Shown here in pieces: positions 11,328 through 24,629 of a DNA stretch of 24,629 nucleotides. The notes under the pieces were generated by a model, which saw only the letters and a list, made by a program, of their open reading frames with translations, had not been told where the DNA came from and did no database searches. The DNA is taken from the IMG/VR virus record IMGVR_UViG_3300044855_000281, positions 1 to 24,629 of that record; one strand, given 5' to 3'. The position numbers and the translations under genes were made by a program. Position 1 is the stretch's first letter. The number at the start of each line of letters is the position of its first letter. The stretch comes from a virus.

Positions 11328-11936
11328 TCACGCCGCCCTATTCTGGTCGCCTCCACGGGTTCGCCCTGTGAGCCACGACCAATTTCGGCCGGCGGCAATT
11401 CCTGAAATTGTTGCGCGTGTCACGCCGAACTCTGCTGCAAGTTCGGACGTGCGCTTGAGTGGAAGCTGCGCGATGATCGCCAAGACCTGCGCCTCGGTTA
11501 GCGTCGCTTGAGGAAGACTAGAGCCGACACTCAACGTGCCGTGATGGCGCTTGTCTTCACAGTTTTCGCCAGGCGTTGCCCAGCGCAGATGATTTGGATT
11601 GCAGCACGCGGGATTGCCGCACCTGTGCGCGGCCTGAAGCCACGAGGCTGACGGCTCGCCATGCGCTAGAATGCAAACGATCCTGTGCGGACCGGTTTGA
11701 ATGCCTCTGAAGCGAGTGTGCCCATACCCATTCGCGTTGACGCCAAATGGCCAAACAACGCATTCGGCGCTGTCGCTAACCAGAGCGGCGTCTATCCACT
11801 TTTGATGTGCGCCGTTCGGTGCGGTCGCCTTGATCGCAAGCGGGTCGCCGTAACGGCGCAGACCGTCATAGTGATGCTGGCAATAGCCCTTCGCCGCATG
11901 TCGGCCGTCGCACCCCTCAATGCTGCAGGTCTTCAT
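11328..11936 (-). CDS. HNH homing-type endonuclease, copy 1
   Basis: A 202-residue protein with an N-terminal Cys/His cluster (C4, C9, C19, H22), a central HNH motif AHRCGNPACCNPNHLRWAT (103-121) and a C-terminal helix-turn-helix (about 164-182, SELAAEFGVTRATISGI). This is the layout of free-standing phage HNH endonucleases. It starts in an ATGA overlap with the rusA stop and ends 101 nt before the ATPase start, so it looks inserted into the replication operon. A paralogue lies at 23959-24576. Confidence 0.9.
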   Translation of the reverse strand: MKTCSIEGCDGRHAAKGYCQHHYDGLRRYGDPLAIKATAPNGAHQKWIDAALVSDSAECVVWPFGVNANGYGHTRFRGIQTGPHRIVCILAHGEPSASWLQAAHRCGNPACCNPNHLRWATPGENCEDKRHHGTLSVGSSLPQATLTEAQVLAIIAQLPLKRTSELAAEFGVTRATISGIAAGRNWSWLTGRTRGGDQNRAA

Positions 11937-22151: not shown

Positions 22152-23963
22152 TTAGTTCGGGACGCGCAGAAGCTTAAAGCCCGCGCCGCCGCTATCGTTT
22201 GCGCCGAAACTCAACTGCGCGCTGTTGATCAGGATGACAGCGTCAGACGGTAAATTGAGCTTCCCCGAACCAGCTTGACGCCCAAACGTCAGGTTTCCGC
22301 TGGCAATACGGAACGACCAGACGTTCGTGCCGTCGCTCAACACAGAGTGAGCCTCGGAGCCGTTATAGACGTAGAGAGATGTGCTTGTGCCAATTGCCGC
22401 CTTGCCCGCAATGACGGACGATTGAGCCTCGCCCGCAACAAGGTTTTCAAACCCGTACCCGGCAGCGTTGCCCCTTGAGTTGCGCCTCACGATCACCGCG
22501 CCTGTGCCTCCGGTCGGGAGCGGCGTTCCGTTTGCTTCGTCAAGGCGATCAATGACAATCCGGCCCGCTGTGGTGACGCCGACCGTGTCAGTGCCTTCGA
22601 CATAGGCCGCATTCGTGCCGCTATACTGGTCGATATGCAGTGCCTCAGTGTAAGTCGCGTTACCAGCGCGCGTGCCAGACACAAGGAACGGCCTGCCGGT
22701 TCCAACCGAAATAGACCGCAGCATGTTGACAACAATGTTGTCAGCGTTCTTGAACCAGACCGCGTCTCCGTTTGTGTGCAGAAGGTCTATAGAAATAATC
22801 TTCGCTGAAATTGAAGTATTGGCGTTTGACGACCCGTTGAACACAACGCCGATACACGCATCGGACGCAGTCGTGTCGATTAGTCTTCCGGCCATATCAA
22901 GGTCAAAGTTTTGACAGTCCGCAGCTTCGCCAAGCGTCGTGCCGGTGACAAGGCAGTCAAACAAGACCGCCTCGGTGCCCTCGCAGTTGGCAAAGTAAAA
23001 ACGATATATTCCGTTGTATCGCGATGTGACGTGCAATATGCGCGTGGCGTTGCCGCCGCTGTCGAAAGTGATATCAACAAACCCACCAGCATCTTCGCGC
23101 GGCGTACTAGCTGTCCCGCTGACCGTCCTGTGACGCGCCATCGTGATTGCGGCTGTAGCCAGGATACGCGTGCCACCACGTGCGACGTTCGCTCCAACAT
23201 CGTGATTGGAGCCGCGCCCCGCGCCCTTTACGAGAACGTTGGAATACGTGTTATCAAGCACCGAGTTGATTGCGATGTAGCTCGTGCCTGTCGGCGGCAG
23301 GATGACTTCGCCGCCGCCGTCCGTGTTGCACTGAGCCATCGCGGCGGTGATTGCTGTGACGTTGTCCGCTGGTACGCTTCCGGATGTGGAGCCTTGCGTC
23401 AGGCCGAACCACGAAACGTCAATCCGGCCTTTCGTGTAGAGCCTGACAAAACGCCCCGCCCCGCCGCCGTCAATCGCCAAGATCGTCCCGCCGTTTGCGG
23501 TCGTGGTTGATGCGCTGTCATAGAGCCACTGGCCCTGCCCGCCATCGTTCTCCGAAGAGCGGCCAAGCGTCTGATATAGCCCGTTGTCCACAAGCCCTGT
23601 GCTGGACGTTAGCGCCGTAAGCGCCGCATTGTTCGACACGATCAGAGGCGTAAGGACAGCCGCGCCGGCCGCGTCCAGTTCTGCGGGGACGTAGATCGTG
23701 TCGTACGTCACCGCCTCGGCTGCGTCGGTGATGGTGAACGCATAGGACAGCGCGGGGTTGACGTAGACGACACGGCCAGCGGCACCCAGCGTGGCGGGGT
23801 TGCTTGCAGGCGTCGTCAGCTCCGGGTCGGTGTAGAACGTGCGGCGCGTTCCTGTCGGTGCGCCGGCAGATGTCGGAACCCAGCCGTTGACCTTGAACGT
23901 AGACGCAATGGTGCCGTTGGCTGCTACGGCGGGGATGTAAAAAGGTACGCCGTTCGCGCTAAT
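22152..23963 (-). CDS. Tailspike/tail fibre with pectin-lyase-like beta-helix, apparent ATT start
   Basis: A 603-residue receptor-binding protein if read from ATT 23963. The N-terminal 84 residues contain a fibre-type motif (TFYTDPELTTPASNPATLGA, then AGRVVYVN). A pectate-lyase-like stretch (FGLTQGSTSGSVPADNVTAI, GGGEVILPP) opens a repetitive beta-helix. The first canonical start in frame is GTG 23711, which would remove this conserved-looking N-terminus. The ATT lies 5 nt after GGGAGG and overlaps the stop of the upstream HNH gene. No ATG, GTG or TTG precedes GTG 23711 in this frame after the TGA at 23983-23981. Confidence 0.82.
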   Translation of the reverse strand: MSANGVPFYIPAVAANGTIASTFKVNGWVPTSAGAPTGTRRTFYTDPELTTPASNPATLGAAGRVVYVNPALSYAFTITDAAEAVTYDTIYVPAELDAAGAAVLTPLIVSNNAALTALTSSTGLVDNGLYQTLGRSSENDGGQGQWLYDSASTTTANGGTILAIDGGGAGRFVRLYTKGRIDVSWFGLTQGSTSGSVPADNVTAITAAMAQCNTDGGGEVILPPTGTSYIAINSVLDNTYSNVLVKGAGRGSNHDVGANVARGGTRILATAAITMARHRTVSGTASTPREDAGGFVDITFDSGGNATRILHVTSRYNGIYRFYFANCEGTEAVLFDCLVTGTTLGEAADCQNFDLDMAGRLIDTTASDACIGVVFNGSSNANTSISAKIISIDLLHTNGDAVWFKNADNIVVNMLRSISVGTGRPFLVSGTRAGNATYTEALHIDQYSGTNAAYVEGTDTVGVTTAGRIVIDRLDEANGTPLPTGGTGAVIVRRNSRGNAAGYGFENLVAGEAQSSVIAGKAAIGTSTSLYVYNGSEAHSVLSDGTNVWSFRIASGNLTFGRQAGSGKLNLPSDAVILINSAQLSFGANDSGGAGFKLLRVPN

Positions 23964-24576
23964 TGTAGCCTCCCACGGATTTCAGTTTTGCTTGATAAGT
24001 TCTTTTGTTCGGAAGGCCCGTTACGGACGTCCAAACAGCTCCGCGCTTGATCGCTGCGACGGTGGTTCGAGAAACGCCGAAATCTTCTGCAACCAGGCGA
24101 TGTATTCTGTTGTCGCTCAGGATCATGGCGACGTCGTCTGCACTCAGTTTGGCTGTCGGCCTGGCCTCGCCAGACGAGCGCGTTCCATGAACAATCTGGT
24201 CGTCTGAGTTTTGCTGCGGAGTGGCCCAGTACAGGTGGTTCGGATTAACGCAGGCAGGAACACCGCACCGATGCGCAGCCTCCGCGTGATCGAATGGCGG
24301 GCTCCCATGCGCGAGAATACACATGGCCCTTGAGGCGGCCATCTTTTGCCCGTTGAGAGACGCGCCGCCGTAACCCTTTTGGCGACGTCCGTATGGCCAT
24401 ATCAAGCAGTCTGCTGACTTGTGTTCGGTATGCTGCAAGAGAAAACTCTGCGTCATTCCGCGTCGATAACTTGGTTTGATAGCTCCATGTCTCGTCAAAC
24501 GGGCGTAGCAGGTTCCGCAGAAGCCGCGAGCCAACACTTTGTTTCTGCCGCACTCAGAACAGCAAGTTGCGGCCAT
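23959..24576 (-). CDS. HNH homing-type endonuclease, copy 2
   Basis: A 205-residue paralogue of the 11328-11936 protein. It has N-terminal zinc-type cysteines (C6, C9, C20, C23), a central AHRCGVPACVNPNHLYWAT HNH motif (101-119) and a C-terminal helix-turn-helix (RLVAEDFGVSRTTVAAIKRG). It starts after a terminator, with GGAG upstream of ATG 24576, and ends at the tailspike start. No intron or upstream exon of the tailspike is seen, so it is a free-standing endonuclease inserted between genes. Confidence 0.9.
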   Translation of the reverse strand: MAATCCSECGRNKVLARGFCGTCYARLTRHGAIKPSYRRGMTQSFLLQHTEHKSADCLIWPYGRRQKGYGGASLNGQKMAASRAMCILAHGSPPFDHAEAAHRCGVPACVNPNHLYWATPQQNSDDQIVHGTRSSGEARPTAKLSADDVAMILSDNRIHRLVAEDFGVSRTTVAAIKRGAVWTSVTGLPNKRTYQAKLKSVGGYN

Positions 24577-24594
24577 TGCTCAGGCTCCAATGCG

Positions 24595-24618
24595 AAAAAC
24601 CCCGCCTTGTGAGCGGGG
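24595..24618 (-). terminator. Rho-independent terminator upstream of HNH copy 2
   Basis: On the minus strand CCCCGC and its complement (24618-24613 with 24605-24600) form a 6-bp GC stem with a 7-nt loop, followed by TTTTT (24599-24595). It ends a leftward transcript from beyond the right edge, 19 nt before the HNH start codon. Confidence 0.82.
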
Positions 24619-24629
24619 CCGGGTCGTTT

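Follow-up and report, generated by a model that had tools for sequence, protein, structure and literature searches.

Where does translation of a tailspike begin when its reading frame offers no canonical start codon ahead of its conserved N-terminus? This question is raised by one end of the window, by which we mean the whole 24,629-nt stretch analyzed here (IMG/VR viral record IMGVR_UViG_3300044855_000281, positions 1 to 24,629). The tailspike frame lies on the minus strand (22152..23963), where it runs open from an ATT for 603 codons plus TAA (22154-22152), and its 5' end overlaps an HNH endonuclease gene encoded on the same strand (23959..24576).

A candidate ATT start of the tailspike overlaps the HNH stop

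Read along the minus strand, the junction consists of a GGGAGG Shine-Dalgarno (SD) sequence (23969..23974), CTACA (23968-23964), the proposed tailspike start ATT (23961..23963), and the HNH stop TAG (23959..23961), such that ATT and TAG share one base (ATTAG), 5 nt separate GGGAGG from ATT, and the SD falls within the final HNH codons (VGGYN). Upstream of ATT the tailspike frame reads TGA AAT CCG TGG GAG GCT ACA ATT, leaving six sense codons after the TGA, and we found no ATG, GTG, or TTG in frame from this TGA down to the GTG at 23711. The initial annotation had described this same arrangement, with no canonical start above the GTG and an ATT behind GGGAGG overlapping the HNH stop, and every coordinate of it checked out.

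The predicted duplex between the SD and the anti-SD amounts to -10.2 kcal/mol at the ATT site, the strongest among 24 sites scored in the window, as compared to -5.6 for the native leader described below. By itself the motif is not unusual, since GGAGG-N4-8-ATT is expected by chance 2.5 times in 24.6 kb over both strands; its chance of falling at one fixed codon is about 5e-5. RNA folding around the ATT was unremarkable, and a promoter scan of 23700-24629 returned none, so no separate tailspike promoter was seen there, with the caveat that the sigma-70 consensus may not apply. Judged from the sequence, the ATT with its strong SD is the only well-supported candidate for the tailspike start.

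Relatives without the HNH gene locate the native start

To find the original start, the initial annotation had suggested alignment with phages lacking the HNH gene, and this alignment placed an ATG at the codon equivalent to the ATT. Among IMG/VR contigs, 13 carry the same tailspike start region without an HNH gene there (79-93% identity over 95 residues where complete), and all 13 have a tailspike ATG at the codon matching the ATT, within ATG GCC GCA/GCG ACT/ACC (MAAT) and with N-termini reading MAATG. The fibre-like N-terminus that the earlier reading had recognized upstream of GTG 23711 is thus real, being encoded by these 13 contigs. Codon for codon, ATT AGC GCG AAC GGC GTA in the window aligns with ATG GCC GCA ACT GGC GTT in the relatives, whose native start reads GGAG..ATG GCC GCA ACT GGC and whose conserved leader ends in GCATTGGAGCCTGAGCA or a close variant.

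The same leader, followed by the ATG and four codons, occupies positions 24629-24565 of the window and continues into the HNH frame. This native tailspike leader (24577..24629, minus strand) comprises a GC-rich hairpin and GGAG (24588-24585) 8 nt before the ATG, and is highly conserved relative to 8 HNH-less contigs, while the captured tailspike codons 1-4, ATG GCC GCA ACT (MAAT; 24565..24576, minus strand), are identical to most relatives at 12/12 nt. Because the leader, ATG, and MAAT run into the HNH frame, and because the N-termini of free-standing HNH homologues lie only a few residues ahead of this zinc-finger cysteine, the HNH gene has evidently become fused in frame to the start of the tailspike gene itself. 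The native ATG is still present and, as read from the sequence, is the start codon of the HNH gene (24576). The proposal that HNH insertion had replaced the native start therefore stands as to the insertion being the cause, but not as to the ATG being removed, given that the HNH gene has taken over ATG, SD, and MAAT and begins with them.

At the other end of the insert, the bases ATTAGCGCGAAC may be part insert and part altered copy of the old start. When duplication of the start region was considered as their origin, they gave 6-8/12 matches to native starts, a level reached likewise by 7% and 0.7% of the window's 12-mers. The exact 3' junction GTGGGAGGCTACAAT had 16 matches in IMG/VR, none of them continuing with TAGCGCG as in the window, and we took these as unrelated rather than as the same junction.

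Separately, the leader (ACAAACGACCC, a GC-rich hairpin with a varying loop, and GCATTGGAGCC) is conserved in the window (24577-24629) and in contigs L002, L003, L005, L009, L011, L012, L015, L016, and L027, where it precedes differing tailspike bodies and, in L027, a tailspike whose N-terminus is very different; the sequence upstream of it varies too. Given this distribution, tailspike modules seem to be exchanged at the leader.

The HNH gene belongs to a family found at several sites

The HNH gene encodes 205 aa with an N-terminal zinc finger, an HNH_3 domain, and a C-terminal HTH-like region. Its assignment comes from Pfam, where the match to HNH_3 (PF13392) scored 26.2 bits against a cut-off of 24.8, and from PHROG, whose HNH families match it down to 2e-21. 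The protein is 35-40% identical to free-standing phage HNH proteins, and related phages carry the same family at other sites. Its presence is patchy in the manner of homing endonucleases, with the site empty in the 13 relatives; contig L002 lacks the gene yet is identical to the window over 4190 nt. A search of IMG/VR with the HNH protein returned relatives of 35% identity at other places only, and no second HNH-bearing copy of the tailspike-start allele. The alignment of HNH sequences was too diverse to scan.

The window holds a second HNH gene of the same family (40% identity; 11328-11936, minus strand), which sits in a tight operon with its ATG overlapping the stop of the preceding gene and has a relative in genome G011, apparently at the same place. 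Two further copies, at G006:C1:18212-18745 (L072) and G013:C1:12024-12557 (L071), occupy a different site in phages with an empty tailspike start, and each contains one in-frame TAG, such that both are apparently decaying.

A near-identical contig differs only beside the insert

The L002 contig is identical to the window from its own end (19606) to 23795, with 0 differences over 4190 nt, so that tailspike codons 57 to stop are the same in both. At 23796 this identity switches abruptly to a diverged haplotype of about 168 nt (23796..23961, minus strand), which contains all 29 differences between the two tailspike genes, and the window's leader also differs from that of L002, resembling L009 instead. 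Differences packed beside the HNH gene in this way are consistent with homing accompanied by co-conversion, or with a chimera of strains in the assembly. Mobility with short co-converted flanks has been described for phage endonucleases (PMC2988022), and from this pattern we infer mobility by homing, under which the HNH enzyme would cleave leader DNA of the empty site near ATGGCCGCAACT.

Within the flank, tailspike codons 6-57 differ from those of relatives mainly by synonymous changes (dN/dS 0.05-0.27), with no stop or frameshift, and just 6 of these codons, 4 with synonymous and 2 with conservative changes, occur in the window alone. Most of the divergence is thus older than the insertion and barely tests the functionality of the present arrangement.

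The region at stake resembles a head-binding domain

A profile of the first 95 tailspike residues matched solved head-binding domains of the Pam1/Pan3 type at E values from 2e-4 to 0.005, including PDB 7eeq (Pam1 tailspike head-binding domain, E 0.003) and 9vyg (Pan3 tail spike, E 2e-4), which delimits an N-terminal domain at 23679..23963 (minus strand). The fold comparison was weak, with a domain model of modest confidence (pLDDT 67) for which 7eeq was the top Foldseek match at E 0.27, and a VIA-align superposition whose Z of 4.5 was tied with unrelated folds. In that superposition model residues 11-95 pair with residues 10-94 of the 7eeq chain, and since residue 11 thus pairs with residue 10, the domain would begin at about the ATT codon. 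The domain is common to different tailspikes whose bodies differ. For the body of the window's tailspike, where a podovirus tailspike of this type would have a beta-helical receptor-binding fold, there was no Pfam match, and the full-length model (pLDDT 32) was not used. Neither the whole protein nor its first 95 residues matched annotated phage proteins, and no copy of the tailspike was found in bacterial genomes, by protein or by alignment. Codons 1-94 thus correspond to the head-binding domain, and a product begun at GTG 23711 without it would be unable to attach. Gene callers restricted to ATG/GTG/TTG would drop this virion-binding domain.

Proposed translation of the tailspike from AUU, and its alternatives

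The reading that we favor, at somewhat better than even confidence, is that the HNH gene has captured the tailspike start and that the tailspike would be made, at reduced yield, by termination-reinitiation or fresh 30S binding at AUU. What the sequence shows is the capture itself, an ATT in register with the native ATG, a strong SD in front of it, and no alternative start. On this reading a homing-type HNH gene inserted after tailspike codon 4 as an in-frame fusion to the native initiation region, such that the tailspike leader, SD, and ATG now drive the HNH gene. Ribosomes ending HNH translation at UAG would stand on the GGGAGG SD with an AUU overlapping the stop, and the overlap would likely make tailspike translation coupled to that of the HNH gene. 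The full tailspike, including its virion-binding domain and with an N-terminus reading (f)Met-SANGVPFYIPAV, would then come from the same mRNA. AUU is a poor start codon, and the yield would probably be well under that of the native ATG. SD sequences increase reinitiation efficiency (PMC2268962), and in Staphylococcus some genes start at AUU behind a strong extended SD, non-canonical starts there reaching about a tenth of AUG reporter expression (PMC13009471). A stricter version, in which the endonuclease steals the initiation site of the receptor-binding protein and supplies an SD and AUU in its own last codons so that tailspike is made only if HNH is translated first, we regard as possible but doubtful. 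If true, the insert would be hard to lose and the tailspike dose would be tuned.

Other explanations concern whether this allele works, or exists, at all. The HNH insertion may simply have silenced the tailspike, in which case the contig would represent a variant that arose recently, is short-lived or defective, or receives help from co-infecting phages; the complete identity to L002 over 4190 nt allows that the arrangement is too young for decay, and the failure to find a second HNH-bearing copy in IMG/VR fits as well. An accidental junction would, however, not be expected to place an ATT precisely at the native start position behind the strongest SD scored in the window, and the flank's own diverged haplotype and intact frame suggest persistence in a donor lineage, leaving such a broken allele improbable. 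Slightly less probable is a sequence or assembly fault, such as two strains merged at the contig end, or a wrong base that masks an ATG or an in-frame fusion. The HNH-bearing allele is known from a single metagenome contig, which extends just 53 nt beyond the HNH start, into a leader common to many phages, and the abrupt switch at 23796 might mark such a join, although the HNH-ATT junction would not be affected by a strain switch there. ATT and TAG support each other, which lowers the likelihood of a base error: the single change giving ATG (at 23961) would at the same time abolish the HNH stop and lengthen the HNH frame by 146 codons.

The remaining alternatives would make the tailspike by another route, and we consider each of them very unlikely. 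An HNH-tailspike fusion of about 808 aa would result if ribosomes underwent programmed +1 frameshifting at the HNH stop, where the sequence (GGGAGG-CUAC-AAU-UAG-C) is arranged much as in the RF2 gene, and the tailspike is indeed in the +1 frame, open across the stop, with 4 nt between an SD and the last sense codon and a C after UAG. The frameshift codons of RF2 are CUU/UUU, though, whereas a shift here from AAU to AUU would pair poorly, with U-U in the middle, and the virion-binding end is unlikely to tolerate an added DNA-binding protein of 205 residues. Rated lower again is a shorter tailspike from GTG or another near-cognate codon downstream of ATT. The GTG (23709..23711, minus strand; codon 85) is the first canonical in-frame start, but we rejected it as the main start given that its GAGG lies just 2 nt upstream, that SDs are weak or poorly placed at the remaining near-cognates scored, and that all or much of the conserved head-binding domain would be lost. 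Least credible is an HNH gene inside a self-splicing intron or intein whose splicing restores the tailspike from the native ATG; insertion in frame after MAAT and an HNH frame terminating in Asn would suit it, but the HNH gene occupies the entire insert with no room for a ribozyme core, ends in its own TAG, and is followed by the tailspike in another frame. Rfam returned no match at E up to 1 for the whole window or for 23700-24629, and Pfam found HNH and zinc-finger families only on the insert, with no Hint domain.

Comparison with known systems

Endonucleases that split genes, out-of-frame HNH insertions, and AUU starts are each already known, while a limited search of the open-access literature returned no description of an endonuclease gene appropriating a virion gene's start codon so that the latter is left with a near-cognate start. 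Among T4-type phages, free-standing endonuclease genes have inserted into genes as mobE in Aeh1 nrdA and mobA in T4 gene 60 (PMC2988022). Both resemble our locus in that an intron-less endonuclease gene lies inside a functional gene and separates its parts, with neighboring sequence co-converted (PMC2988022), but there the target is split into two coding parts, whereas here just the start and three codons are taken and the domains are kept whole. The phage methylases of ShiLan and Pacc40 likewise have an HNH frame nested in a phage gene with no intron or intein detected, and in ShiLan the HNH stop lies at the very end of the insert (PMC11855218). In those cases the host frame reads through and the HNH gene needs an internal start, while here it is the HNH gene that uses the host's start codon, and the host gene is the one in need of another.

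The genes infC, pcnB, and staphylococcal cvfC1 share with our locus an AUU, a strong SD, and an expectation of low yield, as described in PMC13009471 and its references (infC through the references of PMC2268962). The putative AUU here differs in that it overlaps an upstream stop and seems to be the product of a mobile-gene insertion, and if used, it would be a natural AUU start of a virion gene necessitated by a mobile element and a simple test system for near-cognate termination-reinitiation. Overlap of a downstream start with an upstream stop is also seen in the UAAUGA coupling of nrdA and mobE (PMC2988022, PMC2268962), though the overlap here is AUUAG and the order is reversed, with the endonuclease first and the virion gene second. 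Together, L002 and the window make a natural pair of alleles that match without a difference over >4 kb, one empty and the other occupied by a selfish gene that has appropriated a host gene's start codon instead of splitting that gene.
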